Assembly (NCBI RefSeq): GCF_009791395.1
Contig: NZ_WSZK01000006.1
Span: forward strand, 1-64,000
Direction of reading: 5' to 3'
DNA length: 64,000 nucleotides
DNA from: Halomarina oriensis
GTDB lineage: Archaea > Halobacteriota > Halobacteria > Halobacteriales > Haloarculaceae
How positions within the stretch are numbered: the stretch's first letter is position 1; each line of letters starts with the position of its first letter. Below, piece by piece: positions 22,344 to 30,722 of the stretch. The position numbers and the translations under genes are program-made. The notes under the pieces were generated by a model, which saw only the letters and a list, made by a program, of their open reading frames with translations, had not been told where the DNA came from and made no database searches.

Positions 22344-22437
22344 GTCACAACCTTCTTTCGACAGCGTCAGTGTGTCGTCGCTGGTAGCACCGGCCAACGC
22401 TCTCCCCACAGTCGCCCGCCGTGTTTATTTCATATGG

Positions 22438-22483
22438 GATTCTGGTGACTCAGCTGTTAGACTCGTGCCGCGAGTGTATCACC
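22438..22483 (+). repeat. Hairpin repeat copy 1 (right arm clear; left arm degenerate)
   Basis: The right arm shares 31 of 34 positions with copy 2 (cores CTCAGCTGTTAGACTCGTGC and CTCAGCTGTTAGACACGTGC). The expected left arm around 22357-22400 is recognisable only weakly (a CACCGGCCAA segment at 22388). It lies 43 nt upstream of the small lipoprotein gene at 22526. Confidence 0.7.
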
Positions 22484-22497
22484 CGTCAGGAGAAAGT

Positions 22498-22509
22498 ATT
22501 TATTTAAAA
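22498..22509 (+). promoter_or_regulatory. TATA box of the small lipoprotein gene
   Basis: An A/T-only run (TATTTATTTAAA) lies 17-28 nt upstream of the ATG at 22526, a strong haloarchaeal core promoter for a leaderless mRNA. Confidence 0.65.
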
Positions 22510-22525
22510 CCACGAAATTGCCTGC

Positions 22526-22870
22526 ATGAAGCGACGGTCCCTCCTCGCCCTCCTCGGCATCTCCATGACTGCTGGCTGTTCGGACCTTACACGGGGCCTC
22601 ACCGGTAATGGTGAACGAGAGCACAAGGTGCGAGCAACCTACAGCTGTGACGAGTCCGCTGACCCATCATGCACCGCGACAATACGCGTTGAGCAGATGG
22701 GGCGAGCGAACCAGTACACCGCTCGCCTCGCCAATACATCGTCAACATCCACCGACCACATTCTTGACGAAGCGGGGGACGACGTGACGTTCCGTTTGAA
22801 CCCCGACCAAACCGTCGAGGTGTACGCCGAATATGACGATTCGACACGTCGGATGATGAGAGTCCCGTAA
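22526..22870 (+). CDS. Small lipoprotein, unknown (repeat-flanked)
   Basis: 114 residues. The signal MKRRSLLALLGISMTAGC ends in a lipobox (cysteine 18). The mature part has two cysteines (SCDESADPSC), then a beta-rich region (ATIRVEQMGRANQYTARLA) and VTFRLNPDQTVEVYAEYD, which reads like a small Ig-like or surface domain. Visibly lower G+C and weaker GC3 bias than the core genes suggest recent arrival. It lies between repeat copies 1 and 2 with its own TATA box. No family recognised. Confidence 0.7.
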   Translation: MKRRSLLALLGISMTAGCSDLTRGLTGNGEREHKVRATYSCDESADPSCTATIRVEQMGRANQYTARLANTSSTSTDHILDEAGDDVTFRLNPDQTVEVYAEYDDSTRRMMRVP

Positions 22871-22890
22871 CTACGGAGTGGGACAGGTCT

Positions 22891-23006
22891 GATAGACTCA
22901 CGCTCTCTGTCTAACAAGACCGGCAAGCAACGAGATAGCTTTCTTTCGTACCGATCCGCCGTGGCTCAGCTGTTAGACACGTGCCGCGAGTATAGCACGC
23001 CGCTGG
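22891..23006 (+). repeat. Hairpin repeat copy 2 (both arms)
   Basis: 116 bp. The left arm has CTCACGCTCTCTGTCTAACA then ACCGGCAA. The right arm has CTCAGCTGTTAGAC then GTGCCGCGAGT. GTCTAACA (22909-22916) and TGTTAGAC (22971-22978) are exact reverse complements, so the element can fold into a hairpin. It begins 20 nt after the lipoprotein stop at 22870 and ends 15 nt before the stop of the opposite-strand lipoprotein at 23022. Confidence 0.8.
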
Positions 23007-23021
23007 GTTCGTGTTGCGGGT

Positions 23022-23426
23022 TTACGGCGGCTGCTCCAATCCCGTGATAACGAACGAACCATCCTCATCAACCGTTATCAGGACTGTCCCTCCGACACGT
23101 TCGCCATCGGCGTTCTCACCGATACCAACGAGTCCGGCAACCGGAGCGTCGTCTCCTCGCTGGACAGTGACCCTGTACTCACCTTGCTGTGAGAACGCTT
23201 CATGGAGGTCGACCCCCATGCCGGGCGTGAGCGTCAGATTAAATTGAGCCGTGGTGTTCTCGCTCTGAATGGAGAGGTTGATACGCTCTGTTTGGTTGTA
23301 CTCGTTCTCAAGTACAACTCCTGTGGACCCCTCTGATGACCCGCCAATGTTTGGCACCGAACAGCCAGAAACTGCCACCAGCAAGCAGACGATGATGAGA
23401 GGACCAAACCGTCGACGGAGAGGCAT
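23022..23426 (-). CDS. Lipoprotein, unknown (repeat-flanked)
   Basis: 134 residues. A Sec-type lipoprotein signal (MPLRRRFGPLIIVCLLVAVS with cysteine 22) is followed by GGSSEGSTGVVLENEYNQTE, INLSIQSENTTAQFNLTL and VRVTVQRGDDAPVAG-like beta segments, suggesting an Ig-like surface domain. The start at 23426 is set by the signal peptide. A TATA-like GCTTATC (complement, about 23449-23456) lies upstream. It has lower G+C than the core genes and is flanked by repeat copies 2 and 3. Function unknown. Confidence 0.72.
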   Translation of the reverse strand: MPLRRRFGPLIIVCLLVAVSGCSVPNIGGSSEGSTGVVLENEYNQTERINLSIQSENTTAQFNLTLTPGMGVDLHEAFSQQGEYRVTVQRGDDAPVAGLVGIGENADGERVGGTVLITVDEDGSFVITGLEQPP

Positions 23427-23476
23427 GTCTCGATTCCATGTACTATTGCGATAAGCTTTCTGTCGGTCCAGTTGCT

Positions 23477-23592
23477 CGATACACTCACGCTCTCTGTCTA
23501 ACAATACCGGCAATAAATACAGTGGCTGATCCCTTCGCTCACATTCCGAGTGTGCCAGTCGCAAGTTTGGCAGACAAGAGCGTTGGCTCTCT
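23477..23592 (+). repeat. Hairpin repeat copy 3 (left arm clear; right arm diverged)
   Basis: The left arm repeats CTCACGCTCTCTGTCTAACA and ACCGGCAA of copy 2 exactly. A diverged right arm (TTTGGCAGACAAGAGCGTTG, 23566-23585) still resembles the reverse complement of the left arm, so a hairpin remains possible. It overlaps the region just downstream of the alpha/beta hydrolase gene. Confidence 0.65.
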
Positions 23593-23597
23593 TCCGC

Positions 23598-24551
23598 TCA
23601 GGCTTCGACGTACTCCAGGTCGTCGACCACGTCGCCCCGGACGACGGCGGCGAACTCGGTCGGGTGTTCGTAGTGCGGGAGGAGGAGTGCGTCGTCGAAC
23701 ACGACGAGTTTCGCGTCGATGGCCTCGGCGAGTTCGCGGCCCTGCTCCAGCGGGAGGATGTCGGCGTCGCGGCCCCAGACGACGGTCACGTCGGCGTCGA
23801 CGTCCGCGAGCGTCTCCGCGAGGTCGAGGTCGGAGTCGAGAAAGCCGCTGACGAACGACGCCGGGGCGAACCGCGCACCGGGCTGGTGGGTGAGCTGCCA
23901 CCGGTATTCGAGCCACTCGTCGTCGGCGTTGCTCGGGTCCGCGAAGCCGTGGTCGGCCTGGAAGTACTGCAGCGACCGCTCGCTCGACAGCAGGTTGAAC
24001 AGCCCTTCACCCACGAGCGGCGAGCGGAGCAGGGAGCGGAGCCACGTCCGGCGGCCGGGCATCGTCGTCGCCGTCGGGCAGACGAGCACGAGTTCGTCCA
24101 CCGAGACGGCCCCGCTCGTCGCGGCTCTGGCGACGTAGGCGGAGGTGAGCGAGGACCCGACGACGGTGGCGTCCTCCACCGTATCGCGCAGGAAGTCGGT
24201 GACGAACGTCTCGTAGAGCGACGCCGAGTACATCAGCGGCGGCCGGTCCGAGAGACCGAACCCCGGCAGGTCGGGGGCGACGACGTGGTAGTCCTCGGCC
24301 AGTGCGTCGAAGCACTCGACGAACTCCGCCGACGACCCGGCGGCGTTGACGCCGTGAATCAGGACGAGGTCCGGGTCGTCCGGGTCACCGGCTTCGGTGT
24401 AGGAGACGTCGAACCCACGCCAGCGGTACGTCTGCGTCGCTCGGCCGAGCGGCGTGTGTGGGGTCTCCGCCTGCCCCGCGAGTGCCCGGTTCGCGGCGGC
24501 CGTCGCCCCGAGGCCGCCGACGAGTCCATAGAGGAGGTTGCGATAGCGCAT
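23598..24551 (-). CDS. Alpha/beta-fold hydrolase
   Basis: 317 residues. An N-terminal hydrophobic segment (LLYGLVGGLGATAAANRALA) may anchor it. The alpha/beta hydrolase core follows: LVLIHGVNAAGSS (oxyanion loop), VVAPDLPGFGLSD, the nucleophile elbow as VVGSSLTSAY, and an acid/His region VVWGRDADILP and LLPHYEHP. The elbow is G-S-S-L-T, an unusual but possible nucleophile setting. Substrate unknown. Same strand as meaB, 69 nt downstream. Confidence 0.8.
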   Translation of the reverse strand: MRYRNLLYGLVGGLGATAAANRALAGQAETPHTPLGRATQTYRWRGFDVSYTEAGDPDDPDLVLIHGVNAAGSSAEFVECFDALAEDYHVVAPDLPGFGLSDRPPLMYSASLYETFVTDFLRDTVEDATVVGSSLTSAYVARAATSGAVSVDELVLVCPTATTMPGRRTWLRSLLRSPLVGEGLFNLLSSERSLQYFQADHGFADPSNADDEWLEYRWQLTHQPGARFAPASFVSGFLDSDLDLAETLADVDADVTVVWGRDADILPLEQGRELAEAIDAKLVVFDDALLLPHYEHPTEFAAVVRGDVVDDLEYVEA

Positions 24552-24619
24552 AGCGCACTGTACGACGGTCGGGCGCTTAATCCCTGTCCACGCGCGGGCA
24601 GTCACACCGCCCCACGTTC

Positions 24620-25666
24620 TCAGCCGTCGCGGTCGGCCTCGACACACTCCTCGATGGGGGCGACGAGTTCGTCGGCGACGGCGTAGGGGTCGGTCTCGCG
24701 GTCGAGCACCCGCTGGACGTAGCTCTCGATGCCGCCACGCGCGGCGAGTTCGCCCGCGACGAGTTGGTTGACGTCCTCGCGGAGGAGCGTGCGAATCTCC
24801 TCGGCGTAGCGTTGACGCGCACGCTCCTCGCCTTTCCCCGACTCCGCCAGATAGGTCGCGTGGTCGGCGAGCAACTCGATGAGGTCGTCGACGCCCGTCC
24901 CGTCCTCGGCGACCGTCTCGACGACCTGCGGGGTCCACCCCTCGTCGTCGGTCTCACGGGCCATCGCCTCACTGGCGGCGGCCTCGCTGGCCGCGTCCGC
25001 ACCGTGGTGGTCTGCCGTCTGGGTGTAGTCGTTGCGCGTGTCGATCATCTCGCGCAGTTCCATCACCGTGCGGTCAGCGCCGGGGAGGTCGGCCTTGTTG
25101 ACGACGAACACGTCTCCGATTTCGAGGATACCGGCTTTGAGCATCTGCACGTCGTCACCGCTGCCCGGCGGGACGAGGACGGCGACCGTGTCGGCGGTCT
25201 TCACGATGTCTATCTCGTTCTGTCCCGCGCCGACCGTCTCGACGATGACCTTGTCCTTGCCGAACGCGTCGAGCGCCTTGACGGCGTCCGCGGTGGCCGT
25301 CGAGAGCCCCCCGAGACTCCCGCGAGCGCTCATCGAGCGGAAGAACACGTCCATGTCGCCCGACACGGAGGCCATCCGGATGCGGTCGCCGAGGACGGAC
25401 CCGCCGGTGAACGGTGAGGAGGGGTCGATGGCGATGACGCCCACCGTCAGGCCCTCGTCGCGGTAGGTCTTGGCGAGTTTGTCGACGAGCGTGGACTTGC
25501 CCGCACCCGGCGACCCGGTGATGCCGATGACCTCGGCGTCGCCGGTGTGCTGGTAGAGTTCGCCGACGAGGTCACGATAGCCGGGCGAGCGGTTCTCTAT
25601 CTTCGTGATGGCGCGGGCGAGCGCCCGGTGTTTGCCCGCGAGCAGGTCGTCGATGAGGTCGCCCAT
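24620..25666 (-). CDS. meaB: Methylmalonyl-CoA mutase-associated GTPase MeaB/ArgK
   Basis: 348 residues, G3E P-loop GTPase. Walker A is GSPGAGKS (51-58). IDPSSPFTGGSVLGDRIRM, VETVGAGQNEIDIVKTADT and VNKADLPGADR (NKxD) are diagnostic. It loads and protects adenosylcobalamin in methylmalonyl-CoA mutase. Residues about 210-245 carry an Ala/Asp-rich insertion. It overlaps the start of the B12-binding subunit gene by one base (TGATG at 25664-25668), a translationally coupled pair. Confidence 0.92.
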   Translation of the reverse strand: MGDLIDDLLAGKHRALARAITKIENRSPGYRDLVGELYQHTGDAEVIGITGSPGAGKSTLVDKLAKTYRDEGLTVGVIAIDPSSPFTGGSVLGDRIRMASVSGDMDVFFRSMSARGSLGGLSTATADAVKALDAFGKDKVIVETVGAGQNEIDIVKTADTVAVLVPPGSGDDVQMLKAGILEIGDVFVVNKADLPGADRTVMELREMIDTRNDYTQTADHHGADAASEAAASEAMARETDDEGWTPQVVETVAEDGTGVDDLIELLADHATYLAESGKGEERARQRYAEEIRTLLREDVNQLVAGELAARGGIESYVQRVLDRETDPYAVADELVAPIEECVEADRDG

Positions 25667-26085
25667 CAGTCGCGCTGTGGGGCGTTCTCGCGGACGAACT
25701 CGACGGCCTCCTCCATCGACGCGCCGGGGCCGAAGATACCGCCGACGCCCGCCTCCTTCAGTTTCGGCCGGTCGTCCTCGGGGATGATGCCGCCGACGAC
25801 GACGAGCGTGTCGTCCAGCGCGTCGTACTCGTCGAGTCCCGCCAGAATCTTCGGGACGAGCGTGTTGTGCGCCCCCGAGAGGATGGAGATGCCCAGCACG
25901 TCGACGTCCTCCTGGACGGCCGCCTGGACGACTTCGTCCGGCGAGCGATGCAGGCCCGAGTAGATGACCTCGAAGCCGGCGTCGCGGAACGCCCGTGCGA
26001 TGACGTGTGCGCCGCGGTCGTGGCCGTCGAGGCCGACTTTCGCTACCAGACAGCGGATGGTTCGCTGGTCAGCGTCTGCGCTCAT
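25666..26085 (-). CDS. Methylmalonyl-CoA mutase small (cobalamin-binding) subunit
   Basis: 139 residues. The B12-binding motif is DGHDRGAHV (20-28) with the base-off histidine H22. The Rossmann-like body follows with GISILSGAHN, VVVGGIIPEDD and GIFGPG. In haloarchaea the mutase is split into a large catalytic subunit and this domain. The large subunit is not in the window. It is coupled to meaB, and together they convert methylmalonyl-CoA to succinyl-CoA in propionyl-CoA catabolism. Confidence 0.92.
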   Translation of the reverse strand: MSADADQRTIRCLVAKVGLDGHDRGAHVIARAFRDAGFEVIYSGLHRSPDEVVQAAVQEDVDVLGISILSGAHNTLVPKILAGLDEYDALDDTLVVVGGIIPEDDRPKLKEAGVGGIFGPGASMEEAVEFVRENAPQRD

Positions 26086-26177
26086 GGCCTGGGGTTCACG
26101 GGGTGGGACATTGACTCTAACGAAGCGACTAAGGTCCAAAGCGAAGCGGCCATACACCCGGCGCACGGAGAGTGGGT

Positions 26178-26873
26178 ATGGCCACTGCCTCCTCCGGGAG
26201 CGTCCTCAAGGAGCATCCCCGTGCGATTACGGCGGTGCTCTCCGTCGTGGGCTACGCGCTCGTCCTCGGCGCGTTCGCGGACGTCATCCCGCTGTTCCCG
26301 GAACTCTCGCGTGAGACCGTCATCCTGTTCTCGGACCTCATCGCCGTCGTCAACTCGCTAGCGCTCACTGCCTTACTCGTCGGCTGGTATCTCATCCGGC
26401 GGGGCGACGTCCGGAGACACCGTGTGGCGATGCTGACCGCGTTCACACTCATCTGTGCGTTCCTCGTCCTCTACCTCTGGAAGGTGGGCGGGGGCTTCGA
26501 GAAGTCGTTCGTGATTCGGGAGGGCCAGTTCCTCGCGGGCTACGCGGGGGTCATCGAACCGCTCTACCTCGGCATGCTCGCCATCCACATCCTGCTGAGC
26601 GTCGTCGCAGTCCCCGTCGTGCTCTACGCCATCGTCCTCGGCCTCTCGCACACCCCGCAGGAACTCCGGAACACCGCCCACGCGCGGGTCGGACGCATCG
26701 CCGTCGCGTCGTGGTCGCTGAGCCTCTTCCTCGGCGTCGTCACCTACGTCATGCTCAACCACGTCTACTCGTGGGTGCCGCGCGGCGAGGAGGCGATGCT
26801 CCTGTTGCTCGCCGTCCCCGCCTACCGCGCCCGTCGTGCGTCGGCCCGAGACGACGAGAGCGCCGACGAGTAG
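26178..26873 (+). CDS. DUF420 multi-pass membrane protein
   Basis: 231 residues with about six transmembrane helices. VLFSDLIAVVNSLALTALLVG, WYLIRRGDVRRHRVAM, then HILLSVVAVPVVLYAIVLGL and RIAVASWSLSLFLGVVTYVM match DUF420, with histidines (H in GDVRRHR and HILLS) that may bind heme. DUF420 proteins are found with cytochrome c oxidase assembly genes. Divergent from mcmB. The start at 26178 is preceded by GAGAGTGGGT. Confidence 0.85.
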   Translation: MATASSGSVLKEHPRAITAVLSVVGYALVLGAFADVIPLFPELSRETVILFSDLIAVVNSLALTALLVGWYLIRRGDVRRHRVAMLTAFTLICAFLVLYLWKVGGGFEKSFVIREGQFLAGYAGVIEPLYLGMLAIHILLSVVAVPVVLYAIVLGLSHTPQELRNTAHARVGRIAVASWSLSLFLGVVTYVMLNHVYSWVPRGEEAMLLLLAVPAYRARRASARDDESADE

Positions 26874-27002
26874 TCCGGCCGGCGACCTGTCCTTCCCGAC
26901 GGCAGTGCGTGCGTGTCACCGAATCGCACGCCCGTTATCGTCGGCGTTCGCTTACCTCCGGTTAGTCCGCCGCGGGCGGCGTGTTCGACGCGGTGGCCCA
27001 CC

Positions 27003-28064
27003 ATGAGCGAGGAGTCAACCTACCAGCAGTTGTATCGAACGACCATCCCGTCGGTCGTCTCCATCTACATCGCGGGCAACGGCCGGCGACCCGGCGGTTC
27101 GGGGTCGGGGTTCGTCCACGAGACGGCCGACGGCGAGTGGGTGGTCGTGACGAACCAGCACGTCGTCGGCCGCGAGACGGAGGTCGACGTGCGCTTCGCC
27201 GACGGCCGGTGGCGCGTCGGCGAGGTAGTCGGGAGCGACGCCTCCACCGACCTCGCCGTCGTCCGCGTCCCCGACCTGCCCGACGCGGTCGAACCGCTCG
27301 TCTTCGCCGACGAGAACCCGGTCCCCGGAACGCACGTCGCCGCCCTCGGCAACCCGATGGGTCTCGACGGGTCGCTGTCGGTCGGCGTCGTCAGCGGCGC
27401 GTCGCGGTCGATGGTCACTCGGTCGGGGTTCGTCATCCCCGACACCGTCCAGACGGACGCGCCCATCAACCCCGGCAACTCCGGGGGACCGCTCGTCGCC
27501 CTCGACGGCCGGGTCGTCGGCATCAACCGCGCCCGTGGCGGCGACAACATCGGCTTCGCCGTCAGCGCCGAAGTCGCCGCACGCGTCGTCCCGTCGCTCG
27601 TCGTCGACGGCGAGTACCGCCACCCGTACCTCGGAGTCCGGACCCTCGACGTCTCGCCGAGCGTCGCACAGGCCAACCGCCTGGAGCGGCCCCGCGGCGT
27701 CCTCGTCGTCGACGTGGCCGACGGGCCGGCCAGCGGCGTCCTCCGTGGGTGTCGTGGGACCCGACGCGTCAGGGACCACGACGTGCCCGCCGGCGGCGAC
27801 GTCGTCGTCAGCATCGACGGCGACCCCGTCGACGCCCACGAGCAGTTGATGCGCTACCTCCTGCTGGAGACGCGACCGGGCGATCAGGTGACGCTCGAAC
27901 TGCTCCGGCGCGGAGCGCGCATCGAGGAGCGTGTCCGACTCGGCGAACGACCGATGCCGGGCGAGCGTGGCGACCAGCGCGGCCGTGGGCGTCGTCGGGG
28001 TGGCCGCGACCCACGCGGTGACGGTGACTCCCGTCGCCGCGGGACGAACGTCCCGGTTCGCTGA
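27003..28064 (+). CDS. HtrA/DegP-like S1C serine protease with PDZ domain
   Basis: 353 residues, no signal peptide visible. The trypsin-like domain covers 10-195: TNQHVVGRETE (catalytic His), STDLAVVRVP (Asp) and INPGNSGGPLV (Ser). The PDZ domain follows from YLGVRTLDVSPS to about 310, ending VRLGERP. The tail is an Arg/Gly-rich stretch (RGQRGRGRRRGG-like) atypical of acidic haloarchaeal proteins. A parallel frame there has alanine/valine-rich codons, so the C-terminus may be frameshifted. It degrades or chaperones misfolded proteins. Confidence 0.85.
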   Translation: MSEESTYQQLYRTTIPSVVSIYIAGNGRRPGGSGSGFVHETADGEWVVVTNQHVVGRETEVDVRFADGRWRVGEVVGSDASTDLAVVRVPDLPDAVEPLVFADENPVPGTHVAALGNPMGLDGSLSVGVVSGASRSMVTRSGFVIPDTVQTDAPINPGNSGGPLVALDGRVVGINRARGGDNIGFAVSAEVAARVVPSLVVDGEYRHPYLGVRTLDVSPSVAQANRLERPRGVLVVDVADGPASGVLRGCRGTRRVRDHDVPAGGDVVVSIDGDPVDAHEQLMRYLLLETRPGDQVTLELLRRGARIEERVRLGERPMPGERGDQRGRGRRRGGRDPRGDGDSRRRGTNVPVR

Positions 28065-28149
28065 GGCCGCCTCGATTCGCTCGTCTCGAAACCGGTCGGT
28101 CGAAACGAGAACACCGCTACGCCAGTTCCTGACGTCTCTCCCGACTGTT

Positions 28150-28272
28150 ATGTCAGAACAGAGCGAGTCGTGGACGTCCTCGACGACGGTAACGGGACGT
28201 CCCGGCGAGGAGATGACGCTCGACCTCCGATGGTCAGGGGGCGAACGAGAGGCGACCGTCACCGTGGAGTAA
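28150..28272 (+). CDS. Possible small protein of 40 residues
   Basis: ATG at 28150 encodes MSEQSESWTSSTTVTGRPGE and ends REATVTVE, with an acidic, beta-like pattern and good GC3. It lies between the protease gene and repeat copy 4 and has no clear TATA box. It could be a real small gene or the decayed 3' end of a longer one. No family recognised. Confidence 0.3.
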   Translation: MSEQSESWTSSTTVTGRPGEEMTLDLRWSGGEREATVTVE

Positions 28273-28297
28273 TCGATTGCTCCCGTTCACTCCGACC

Positions 28298-28412
28298 GTT
28301 AGACCCACGCGCTCTGTCTAACAACACCGGCAATCGACGCGAACAGTTCCCTTTCACGCTGATTCGCAGTGGTTCAGCTGTCAGACTGGTGGCGCGTGTC
28401 TATCACCGCTGG
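28298..28412 (+). repeat. Hairpin repeat copy 4 (both arms)
   Basis: 115 bp. The left arm contains CACGCGCTCTGTCTAACA and ACCGGCAA. The right arm contains TTCAGCTGTCAGAC and GTGGCGCGTGTC. GTCTAACA (28316-28323) pairs with TGTCAGAC (28379-28386) except for one A:C, and ACGCGC (28307-28312) pairs exactly with GCGCGT (28392-28397). The changed outer pair relative to copy 2 looks compensatory. Length matches copy 2 within 1 bp. Confidence 0.75.
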
Positions 28413-28451
28413 CATCGAATCGGGCGGGCCATACAGCGCCCGGTCAGGCCG

Positions 28452-28649
28452 CTACTGTGGTTCAGTCGACCGCTCGAAGATGAGAAACTTCGTTCCGCCG
28501 CCGGTGTAATCGACCGTCTCGACCAGCCGCCAGCCCTCGGCGGCCAGTTCGTTGATTTCGACTTTCGGGTCCGCGGACTCCTTTTTCGTCTCGCCACGAG
28601 GGACTCGTAGCGTCTCGTACTCCCAGTGGTCGTCGGTGTGGTGGCTCAT
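28452..28649 (-). CDS. DUF4177-type small protein
   Basis: 65 residues. WEYETLRVPRGE, a LAAEGWRLVETVDYTGGGTKFLIF core and the acidic N-terminus match DUF4177 proteins, which form a small beta sheet with one helix and have unknown function. The start at 28649 (MSHHTDD) is set by the family. It is convergent with repeat copy 4, its stop lying 40 nt from the repeat. Part of the accessory block between copies 4 and 5. Confidence 0.72.
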   Translation of the reverse strand: MSHHTDDHWEYETLRVPRGETKKESADPKVEINELAAEGWRLVETVDYTGGGTKFLIFERSTEPQ

Positions 28650-28743
28650 GTGGAACGGGAGATACTCCGCCGGCGATGATACCACTCCCGATTACTGCTG
28701 GTTACCGAGGGTACCCGGTCGTCGATTACGAACGACGGCATCG

Positions 28744-29139
28744 TCACGGGTAGGTGTCCCCGCTGACCGTCACGTTCTGAGTCGCAACGACACTCCCGTT
28801 GACGGTGTTGACCGCGTACAGCGTCACTGGGGTTCCAGTCGGGAGCGGGAGTGAGACACTGGTCTGTCCGGTGTCGACTTCGGTCGAGTAGAACGACCCA
28901 CCGCTTTCGGTGATGACGTTCACTCGACTCACGCCGTCCGTCGTCGTCGCCGACGGAGCGAACGTGATGGTCGCTTGGACCGACGAGGTTCCCCACTCGC
29001 TGCCTGTCTCGACGTTTCGAAACGTGGCCGAGTCGTTGGACTCTACGGTAACAGACGGATAGACGGTGAGACAGCCGCTCGTAACGACGAGACCGACAAC
29101 AGCGAGTAGGGCGACTGCGCCTCTCCGGGTCGTATTCAT
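28744..29139 (-). CDS. Lipoprotein, unknown
   Basis: 131 residues. The signal MNTTRRGAVALLAVVGLVVT leads to a lipobox with cysteine 23. The mature part is Ser/Thr/Val-rich (VSRVNVITESGGSFYSTEV, then SVSLPLPTGTPVTLYAVN), a secreted beta-sandwich pattern. It lies in the accessory block between repeat copies 4 and 5. Function unknown. Confidence 0.7.
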   Translation of the reverse strand: MNTTRRGAVALLAVVGLVVTSGCLTVYPSVTVESNDSATFRNVETGSEWGTSSVQATITFAPSATTTDGVSRVNVITESGGSFYSTEVDTGQTSVSLPLPTGTPVTLYAVNTVNGSVVATQNVTVSGDTYP

Positions 29140-29280
29140 CTACTCCTCCGTCCGCAAGCGACCCTTATTACTCCACGGCCGGCTTCGACCCGGGGTTCAG
29201 TAGTGAAACAGCCCGAATGCGGCGGGATAGAGGGGGAACAGAGCCCTCAAGTGTGTACCACGAGTCGGCGGAGTCACTAC

Positions 29281-29370
29281 ATGAAACGCGCTGCTCGTGA
29301 GCGGACGGTGCCTCTCTTCGAGGGCCTCTCGCTGACCGATAGACACCAACTGAAGGACTCACAGCGATGA
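29281..29370 (+). CDS. Possible 29-residue leader peptide coupled to the downstream membrane protein
   Basis: ATG at 29281 encodes MKRAARERTVPLFEGLSLTD and ends KDSQR. Its TGA overlaps the next ATG as ATGA (29367-29370). The downstream protein ends RDSQR, an odd match that may be chance. It could be a genuine translated leader for coupling. No family recognised. Confidence 0.35.
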   Translation: MKRAARERTVPLFEGLSLTDRHQLKDSQR

Positions 29371-30440
29371 GCGACGACTCCTCGGAGACTATCGACACCC
29401 GTGAGGAGGACCCGAACCTCGATGCGTCGAGCGTCGACGACATCGGAACGGCGAACACGATGCGCGAGCGAAGCGGCGAGACGAAGTTCAAGGTCTGGCT
29501 GACCCTCGACGGCCACCGCATCGTCGTCGCAGGGCTGTTGGCGATGCTCATCTTCGGTGTGTTCGTCTTTGGCGGGACGTTCTTCTACCAGTACTACCTC
29601 ACGGACGCTCAGACTGCCGACACCGTCGAGACGGTGTTTTCGACGATGATCAGCGCCATCATCACCGGTGTCACGCTCGTGTTGACCATCACGCAGATCG
29701 TCATCTCACAGGAGAACGGGCCGCTCGGCGACCAGCGCCAGCGGATGAGTGACACGATGGACTTCCGAGAGTACACGAAGGAACTCACCGGAACGCCGAC
29801 GCCCGCCGACCCGTCGGCGTTCCTCCGGGCGCTCATCTTGGAGAGCAAAGACTACGCCGAAGACCTGCGCGAATCGGTCCAGAACAGCGACAGTGAGGAC
29901 CTCCGTGGGGAAGTCGGCGAGTTCACGGACAGCCTCATCGGCAACGCAGAGGCTGCCTCCGACAAACTCGAAGGGCGGAAGTTCGGGTCCTATACGGTCG
30001 TCTCGGCGGCACTGGACTACAACTACGGCTGGAAAATCTTCCAGATCGAGCGCATCGCCGACGACTACAGCGACACCCTCACAGAAGAGACGCGGAGGAT
30101 TTTCGACGATCTGAAGACGGTGCTGTCGATGTTCGGTCCCGCACGCGAACACATCAAAACGCTGTATTTCGAGTGGGAACTCATCAGTCTCTCACAGAAC
30201 ATCCTCTATCTCTCCGTCCCGGCGCTCATCACCGCCGGGTTCATGACGACGTACGTCGGCGGGACGGCACTGGCCGGTGGGACGCTCGGCGTGCCGAACC
30301 TCATCTGGGTGACGTCCGGAGCGTTCGCCATCACGACGCTCCCCTTCCTGTTGCTCATCTCGTACATCGCGCGGGTGGCGACCATCGCCAAGCGGACCCT
30401 CGCTATCGGACCGTTCATCCTCCGAGACTCCCAGCGCTGA
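29367..30440 (+). CDS. Membrane protein, unknown, with large central soluble domain
   Basis: 357 residues. Two transmembrane helices near the N-terminus (IVVAGLLAMLIFGVFVFGG, then TMISAIITGVTLVLTITQIV), a soluble helical domain (about 115-270), and two C-terminal helices (LSVPALITAGFMTTYVGGTAL, ITTLPFLLLISYIARVATIA). The central region is acidic with paired charges, suggesting helical bundles. No recognised family, and no pore or catalytic motif. It is part of the accessory block bounded by repeat copies 4 and 5. Confidence 0.75.
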   Translation: MSDDSSETIDTREEDPNLDASSVDDIGTANTMRERSGETKFKVWLTLDGHRIVVAGLLAMLIFGVFVFGGTFFYQYYLTDAQTADTVETVFSTMISAIITGVTLVLTITQIVISQENGPLGDQRQRMSDTMDFREYTKELTGTPTPADPSAFLRALILESKDYAEDLRESVQNSDSEDLRGEVGEFTDSLIGNAEAASDKLEGRKFGSYTVVSAALDYNYGWKIFQIERIADDYSDTLTEETRRIFDDLKTVLSMFGPAREHIKTLYFEWELISLSQNILYLSVPALITAGFMTTYVGGTALAGGTLGVPNLIWVTSGAFAITTLPFLLLISYIARVATIAKRTLAIGPFILRDSQR

Positions 30441-30585
30441 ACCAACCGTTTTCAGGAGGAGAGGCAACGGGCGGTTCATCGCTACTCATCGATTGCGTGC
30501 TGTGGTCGCTCTTTTCCGACAGTGTCGAATTGGAGAGGAACGGTGCGCATTGAGTCGGAGTTCATGATGGGTGTCTGAGTCGTAC

Positions 30586-30690
30586 CGATAGACCCACGCT
30601 CTCTGTCTGACGACGCCGGCAGACGAGGCAGTAGCCGATTCCGGCCGTTCGCGCTCGTGTACCGGGTCCGTCGGTGGCACCGTCCGGTCA
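30586..30690 (+). repeat. Hairpin repeat copy 5 (left arm clear; right arm degenerate)
   Basis: The left arm has CCCACGCTCTCTGTCTGACG and CGCCGGCA, matching copies 2-4 with changes. The right part (GATTCCGGCCGTTCGCGCTC, 30637-30656) keeps a GCGCTCGTG that could pair with the left-arm CACGC. It ends about 30 nt before the ABC permease stop at 30723 and closes the accessory block. Confidence 0.6.
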
Positions 30691-30722
30691 GCACGTCGGT
30701 AGTGGCCGCCGGTCCGTCCGAC

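Follow-up and report, generated by a model that had tools for sequence, protein, structure and literature searches.

Haloarchaea exchange genes at high rates, and the arrival of small accessory genes between their core genes is mostly unexplained. In the present study, we describe a family of repeats in a 64,000-nucleotide stretch of the Halomarina oriensis genome (hereafter the window: 64 kb of a 160-kb contig in a 4.07-Mb draft genome), and we argue that these repeats are probably the recombination sites of a modular gene-cassette system of Halomarina whose cargo is exchanged by a dedicated short tyrosine recombinase. The haloarchaeal cassette-exchange system is real and, as far as searched, undescribed, and it is a form of modular recombination of the dif-module/integron kind; searches of the open PMC literature showed no haloarchaeal cassette system among the results listed. 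Comparison between genomes strongly supports the anatomy of the sites, the rule that each cargo unit lies between one R and one L site, the replacement of cargo at fixed docking sites, the sharing of cassettes between species, the position of breakpoints inside or at the sites, and the linkage of recombinase and sites in two families. We infer that the linked recombinase described below (P0001 in G000) is the agent, that exchange between R sites (RxR) is combined in order with exchange between L sites (LxL), and that the system is presently active. Throughout, G000 denotes the genome containing the window, G001 to G007 are genomes of the same genus, Halomarina, and G399 belongs to another haloarchaeal family.

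Anatomy of the sites

A preliminary description of the window reported a hairpin-forming unit of about 115 bp at five places in one orientation. All five places were recovered in that orientation, and the arms are indeed mutually complementary; the unit, on the other hand, is built from 27-bp sites of two classes, R and L, whose 9-bp arms are similar and whose 9-bp spacers differ between the classes and are highly conserved, the spacers being the best-conserved part of the site. An R site is composed of the inner arm TGTTAGAC(N), the spacer CGTGCCGCG, and the outer arm AGTSTAWCA, while an L site is composed of the outer arm TGWTAGAC(Y), the spacer CACGCTCTC (also found with a final variant, written CACGCTCTC/G), and the inner arm TGTCTAACA. 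Both classes carry the inner arm TGTTAGACA on the backbone side and the outer arm TGWTASACT on the cargo side, and R and L are inversely oriented around each cargo unit. The arms are distinct at arm position 6, where the inner arm has G in 64 of 66 and 82 of 82 cases and the outer arm has C37/G25 of 66 and C16/G64 of 82. The 10-mer adjoining R is GTGACTCAGC ("R-inner"), and that adjoining L is ATACCGGCAA ("L-inner").

The copies previously taken as complete repeats, with lengths of 116 and 115 bp, are L-linker-R junctions of 108 and 109 bp that join neighboring cargo units, and those taken as single arms (at 22438-22483, 23477, and 30586) are single array-end sites (R, L, and L, respectively). 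The linker from L to R measures 53–55 bp in 31 cases, 10–11 bp in eight, 6 bp in one, and -2 bp in three; since it can shrink to 11 or -2 bp, the long hairpin-like middle is dispensable. A second linker type of about 11 bp was noted in G006, in which the inner arm TCTATCG is followed by AACGGGTC... (L098:3222-3273, L202:7276-7340, L070, and L077), and the same genome also has junctions whose two inner arms overlap by 2 bp. Across 30 L-linker-R junctions, examined with two named structures and with RNAalifold, the complementarity of the arms is not conserved as a folded structure: paired cells amounted to 78.5% as against 79.8% after shuffling, the covariation score was 0.100 versus 0.112 in shuffles, and RNAalifold returned -0.05 kcal/mol. 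Conservation across the junctions sits in the primary sequence instead. No Rfam match at gathering scores and no tRNA target was found in the window.

The seven arms of the window have position-weight scores of 42–63, whereas no score above 3.1 for L or 8.7 for R arose when the 64-kb window was Markov-shuffled 10 times; the matrices were built from copies of the same genome, so that the window copies are partly training data. An independent blastn search with one junction found 42 places in the genome at E<=10, with 41 of these at E<=2.3e-4. The sites of the window form two arrays, the first with the layout R-cargo-L/R-cargo-L and the second with the layout L/R-cargo-L, all in one orientation. 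Their parts are as follows, the cargo and its genes being listed with the sites.

22445..22481, + strand: R site with 10 bp of R-inner, left end of array 1; core 22455-22481, TGTTAGACT-CGTGCCGCG-AGTGTATCA; score 60.7
22482..22889: cargo unit 1, 408 bp
22526..22870, + strand: cargo gene, 114 aa, with a lipobox-like signal, a lipoprotein by inspection; no Pfam match at E<=1
22890..22997, + strand: L-linker-R junction, 108 bp; L core 22890-22916, 54-bp linker, R core 22971-22997; scores 63.4 (L, 22890-22926) and 53.8 (R, 22961-22997)
22998..23476: cargo unit 2, 479 bp
23022..23426, - strand: cargo gene, 134 aa, lipoprotein-like (lipobox by inspection); no Pfam match over cut-off
23477..23513, + strand: L site with 10 bp of L-inner, right end of array 1; core 23477-23503; score 62.3; orthologous L in G007
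28297..28405, + strand: L-linker-R junction, 109 bp; L core 28297-28323, R core 28379-28405; scores 54.2 (L, 28297-28333) and 46.0 (R, 28369-28405)
28406..30585: cargo unit 3, 2180 bp, with three cargo genes
28452..28649, - strand: cargo gene, DUF4177 protein
28744..29139, - strand: cargo gene, 131 aa, lipoprotein-like (lipobox by inspection)
29367..30440, + strand: cargo gene, 357 aa, membrane protein by inspection; weak DUF4013 match below cut-off
30586..30622, + strand: L site, right end of array 2; core 30586-30612; score 42.4

Cargo unit 3 is the one that the preliminary description placed between its copies 4 and 5. A scan from 27900 at a threshold of 8 found no R site upstream of the junction at 28297..28405.

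One R and one L around each cargo

Counts of cargo, swapped cores, and intervals refer to the fetched loci, which were mostly chosen for holding sites, and are not genome-wide; cargo units and intervals were counted at a threshold of 17.2. Among cargo intervals (those with outer arms facing) of less than 3 kb in five Halomarina genomes, all 89 have one R and one L site, never R/R or L/L, and the figure is 90 of 90 when cargo of any length is admitted, the additional unit being a 3.7-kb unit (L038) with an aldo/keto reductase. Of the 57 backbone intervals, in which inner arms face each other, seven are R/R and one is L/L, so that the rule applies to cargo in particular. Overall, 147 of 169 intervals between neighboring cores alternate.

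Cargo has a median length of 569 bp (198–2433 bp), and gene-caller output gives one gene in 60 units, two or three in nine, and none in 20; 48 cargo genes run along the direction from R to L and 32 opposite to it. The cargo types include lipoprotein-like and small membrane proteins, DUF4177 proteins, a Na+/H+ antiporter, a Bat/HTH_10 regulator, and an alpha/beta hydrolase.

Cargo turnover at fixed docking sites

Gain, loss, and exchange of cargo are seen on comparison within the genus, which bears out the cassette arrangement first suggested for the window. At the place of array 1 (site 1), an R site orthologous to that at 22445..22481 stands between the same genes in G000, G007, and G006, with flanks that align at 79–84%; the three genomes hold three unrelated cargos there, and the alignment does not extend into the cargo beyond the sites themselves. 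No R or L site was found at this place in G003, G004, and G005, where the ends of the aligned blocks on the two sides are separated by 106, 608, and 65 bp, respectively; G001 and G002 align on the left side only and were counted as neither filled nor empty. At a second place (site 2, locus L050), three different cargos are found in G000, G007, and G001, and the corresponding regions of G003, G004, and G005 (L135-L137) have no arms; the flanks in G006 are about 13 kb apart, and this genome was counted as neither filled nor empty. Sites confined to the 3' ends of core genes, with no presence or absence of cargo, had been named as the pattern that would speak for terminators or RNA motifs; this was examined, and the outcome favors cassettes.

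Cassettes are also shared between species at different places. One cassette, which carries a 49-aa gene, shows complete identity over 247 bp in G000 and G007 and lies beside different genes in these two genomes, whose orthologous flanks have about 86% DNA identity; the identity starts beside the R inner arm, at the R-inner end, and stops after base 17 of the L core. Similarly, G000 and G006 carry, at different places, versions of a lipoprotein cassette with 93% identity; their alignment ends in the spacer of one core, and mismatches cluster in the inner arm of the other. On plasmid-like contigs, G000:C2 and G007:C14 have at least 2982 bp in common at 99.97%, beginning 2 bp outside the L core. 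For G000:C26 and G007:C14, the common stretch is 1324 bp at 99.2% and extends up to the L core. Past the L core these contigs have different cargo, and the recombinase block (94% / 87%) adjoins other neighbors. Judged by these alignments, the plasmid-like contigs show module shuffling at R/L sites. Since the spacers are the same within each class, the data fit an exchange in the spacer, with the outer arm moving with the cargo and the inner arm staying, and they permit no finer placement.

Some cores stand beside the flank of the other class. Counted at a threshold of 14, which lies below the shuffle maximum (17.1 / 16.6) and at which a few of the 242 cores may be chance, 15 L cores have R-inner and 15 R cores have L-inner, a balanced pattern; a further 85 L and 75 R cores have their native flank, and 33 L and 19 R cores have other flanks. 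In the swapped loci, the cargo and both cores are inverted between fixed flanks, and at L042 two cargos are inverted together. A larger repeat was considered as the docking target of inverted loci and dropped: the flanking palindromic repeats vary between loci and also occur in site-free genomes.

A tyrosine recombinase linked to the sites

The preliminary description saw no transposase or integrase and left the agent of movement unknown. Outside the window, a strong candidate is encoded at G000:C2:5009-5821, namely a 270-aa tyrosine recombinase, P0001, whose gene lies between two outward-facing R sites, with cargo and an L site beyond them on both sides. The same R-recombinase-R layout is found in G006 and G007, that is, in three Halomarina genomes altogether. 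Broken copies are also accompanied by sites, with R on both sides at G000:C26, at the 3' end at G000:C11, and on the 5' side at G007:C3, and the R core lies 39–42 bp from the 3' end of the recombinase gene in six copies (G000:C2, C26, and C11, G007:C14, G006:C1, and G399:C10).

P0001 matches the Pfam family Phage_integrase, the only domain found, at 35.4 bits (cut-off 27.1), and the putative catalytic residues R90, K157, H216, R219, W242, and Y251, whose roles were assigned by inspection, are invariant in 23 aligned sequences. Among NCBIfam models at E<=1, four of the XerA, XerC, and XerD type matched far below cut-off (26.8 bits for XerA, NF040815, compared with a curated cut-off of 220 bits), and there was no match to a model of the integron integrase IntI, an enzyme characterized by an additional domain near patch III. 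In the predicted structure (pLDDT 80.7), residues 1–47 are modelled with low confidence and the remainder is the catalytic domain, with no core-binding domain seen in the model; a Foldseek search with this model placed XerA first and IntI4 14th, with XerA and the Tn1549 integrase as the nearest solved folds.

Of 392 genomes of the order, 79 (own genome included) contain a relative of P0001 at E<=1e-25, and most of those listed are 40–50% identical and probably have other tasks. The nearest relative outside the genus is that of G399, which is 75% identical and is likewise located between R-type sites, in a genome that has further arrays. The spacers in G399 are the same as those of Halomarina (GTGCCGCG; CACGCTCTG), and the inner arm is mostly TYCTAGAG. 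No other observation argues as strongly that this protein recognizes these sites as the joint change of the inner arm and the diverged, linked recombinase. For the more distant relatives in G047 (57%) and G195 (55%), no sites were found in their loci with the Halomarina matrix.

Other genes were noted around these sites. R sites also flank genes that resemble Orc1/Cdc6 by inspection, with R-Orc1-R in G001 (L204:2160-3360) and Orc1 followed by R in G007 (L083:153-1224), the replication genes occupying the recombinase's backbone position. Proteins of 344 and 340 aa that resemble classical tyrosine integrases by inspection are encoded near cargo at L054:3870-4904 (G000) and L088:4162-5184 (G007), respectively. 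Contig C2, which holds the recombinase, also has toxin-antitoxin-like small genes (PIN / AbrB type, by inspection; L032:948-1478 and L033:1197-1915).

Distribution over genomes

A sequence-only profile of the 30 junctions, searched at E<=0.01, gave 68 matches in G000, 89 in G007, 45 in G006, 28 in G001, 13 in G005, and one in G002, none in G003 and G004 of the same genus, and 38 in G399. An initial blastn search had found matches at E<=0.001 in six of 59 genomes (own included), all in the genus. In an order-wide scan, eight of 392 genomes (own included) matched at E<=1e-4 among nine candidates scored per genome; these are five Halomarina genomes, G399, and G351 and G213 with one place each, the place in G351 having a GNAT-family gene between sites. 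G399 has 22 R and 12 L sites, from regular-expression lists that include a few probable chance matches. Searching a genome contig collection with the site pattern gave 10 stretches, all from Halomarina rubra (own-genome records are possibly outside the collection), and viral contigs gave 0 exact matches to one 19-base-specified pattern. The sites are spread over the chromosome and plasmid-like contigs, and three draft contigs (C8, C13, and C23) end at a junction, as is expected for repeats.

Proposed mechanism

In the mechanism that we propose, the dedicated short tyrosine recombinase, encoded between two R sites, would recombine sites of the same spacer. Between two DNA molecules, RxR and then LxL would swap one cargo for another, amounting to a natural recombinase-mediated cassette exchange (RMCE), while RxR or LxL alone between direct copies in an array would delete or insert a cargo with its linker, and rarer RxL events would invert cargo. 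The moving unit would be the cargo and half of each site, not the 108-bp repeat. We see an even chance that this amounts in full to a natural RMCE system, with one short dedicated recombinase, two fixed-spacer classes marking the head and tail of the cargo, dozens of ports per genome, and inner arms and recombinase that co-diverge into separate exchange communities between families.

Several observations weigh against this mechanism. The 96% recombinase copy of G007 carries an internal TGA, and the 2.4 kb read at the intact G007 copy (C16, 63%) contain no site above threshold; a weak R-like stretch, located 48 bp away from the gene's 3' end, scores 13.6, below the shuffle maximum of 16.6. G001 and G005 (28 and 13 site matches) have no P0001 relative at E<=1e-8; possible explanations are loss of the enzyme, XerA acting in trans, or a different recombinase. 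XerA-like genes, none of which reaches the curated cut-off, are present in all eight genomes tested, including the two without sites, and could act in trans; in G001, one lies on the same small contig as sites (C6). The 22 of 169 neighboring-core intervals that do not alternate were counted as neither cargo nor backbone, and in these a partner site is presumably lost or below threshold. The RxL events indicated by swapped sites are not expected under a strict requirement for spacer identity. The mechanism does not account for the first entry of docking sites into the chromosome. The intergenic DNA of G003-G005 is too diverged for the insertion point to be read from empty sites. Finally, no recombination was observed, and a draft assembly cannot show minority forms.

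Alternative explanations

The strongest competitor, which we nevertheless consider improbable, is a genuine dif-module system run by the host XerA, with the linked short integrase being merely another module. Its formal logic would be that of the Acinetobacter dif modules, with inverse sites, alternating modules, and a same-spacer rule (PMC13141974), and both the ubiquity of XerA-like genes in the genomes tested and the presence of sites without the dedicated recombinase in G001 and G005 are in its favor. Against it, sites are absent at E<=0.01 from two genomes with XerA-like genes, G003 and G004, the inner arm in G399 changes along with the linked recombinase, and six copies of the dedicated gene have an R core 39–42 bp from their 3' ends.

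Less probable still is a true integron or a CALIN, the latter being a group of attC sites with no integrase of its own. The 108-bp element would then be an attC site, and an integron integrase would recombine it in its folded, single-stranded form. The motifs GTCTAAC and GTTAGAC fit the attC core-site consensus, RYYYAAC / GTTRRRY, and the cassette sizes (by their median) and the adjoining recombinase gene also suit this explanation. Integrons are, moreover, known from archaea (PMC9668308). The junctions, in contrast, show neither covariation nor a conserved fold and are conserved in primary sequence, the linker may be 54, 11, or -2 bp, no integron-integrase model is among the NCBIfam matches at E<=1, and L-inner does not travel with the cassette. 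By the folding and IntI tests, which are negative, the system is not an integron, and the likeness to attC proposed earlier is not borne out by the 30 junctions.

A MITE-like or IS-like transposon with imperfect 27-bp terminal inverted repeats and a DDE transposase in trans would account for the resemblance of the R and L cores together to imperfect terminal repeats and for cargo in both orientations relative to the inner flanks; it is highly unlikely given that cargo is replaced at the same docking sites, that breakpoints lie inside the repeats, and that R-inner and L-inner differ directly beside native units, so there is no target duplication there (for this explanation, genes near the sites were inspected by eye). 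The MITE-like element of the preliminary description accordingly gives way to a moving unit of cargo and half sites.

Archaea recombine often. Conserved intergenic repeats (terminators or RNA motifs), with accessory genes turned over by ordinary homologous recombination, could draw on this frequency, on the short homology that the repeats offer, and on the position of cargo in intergenic gaps, and are just as implausible in view of the lack of an Rfam match or conserved fold, identity that stops inside or a few bases from the 27-bp sites with unrelated sequence beyond, the one-R-one-L rule (89/89), the balanced swapped sites (15/15), and the linked recombinase in two families.

Comparison with known systems

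The system looks like an archaeal counterpart of bacterial gene-cassette systems, and by analogy the closest known logic is that of the dif modules (p-dif modules) on Acinetobacter plasmids (XerC/XerD), for which RxR followed by LxL would be the same reaction. These modules have inverse two-arm 28-bp sites and two alternating module types, with recombination between sites of identical or near-identical spacers. The modules can replace one another, be inverted, or be shuffled, and the route proposed for a single module is a cointegrate formed at one site and resolved at another pair (PMC13141974). In both systems, small modules lie between inverse two-arm sites, of 27 bp in Halomarina and 28 bp in Acinetobacter. 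Unlike the dif modules, the sites described here occur in an archaeal host, have two fixed spacer classes, one per cargo end, are linked to a dedicated recombinase, and form docking sites over the chromosome and plasmid-like contigs, and one module type is often reduced to the 54-bp (or 11-, or -2-bp) linker.

Archaeal integrons have been reported in 75 MAGs from nine phyla in a survey whose text contains no words beginning with "halo" or "Euryarchaeota" (PMC9668308, Ghaly et al. 2022). The Halomarina system is similar to integrons in that a recombinase gene lies beside a site, arrays are mostly of one-gene cassettes, and many arrays have no nearby recombinase; a cassette array beside the recombinase and its own R sites, with cargo beyond, is found in G000, G006, and G007. 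It differs in the lack of attC folding and of an IntI model match, in having sites at both cargo ends and cargo genes in both directions, and in the replacement of cargo between fixed ends.

In engineered RMCE, heterospecific sites have common arms and different spacers, so that the ends are not interchangeable and both are kept after exchange. Cargo in Halomarina likewise lies between two sites with common arms and different spacers, in a system that, unlike the engineered one, is natural and has dozens of docking sites; a search of the open PMC literature listed no natural precedent for an RMCE-type system. Among archaeal tyrosine recombinases, the HSTV2 family is restricted to Halobacteria, and P0001, with Phage_integrase as its only domain, is comparable in domain content to the single-domain archaeal enzymes (HSTV2-like and others) covered in PMC8371274, where the term "cassette" occurs 0 times and no cassette function is given.

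Should the proposed system be confirmed, part of haloarchaeal gene traffic would run through dedicated exchange ports, and, as with integrons, accessory genes could be interpreted as sets of cassettes. The system would solve cassette capture in a separate way, by means of a recombinase of its own and of sites conserved in sequence, and haloarchaeal genetics would gain from the two-spacer design a ready-made tool for directional insertion.

Neighboring features

Within window positions 28064-30722, array 2 occupies the place at which G003, G004, G005, and G007 have a glutamate dehydrogenase-like gene (named by inspection), which is missing there in G000. The genes of G003, G004, and G005 are 78–82% identical to that of G007, while the window has only a 51% paralogue elsewhere. 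Other palindromic repeats, of the CGCTCACTCGTT... type, border several chromosomal docking sites (L050:2537-2736 and L050:3391-3566, with similar flanks at L131, L143, and L144) and are present in the site-free genomes G003 and G004 as well.

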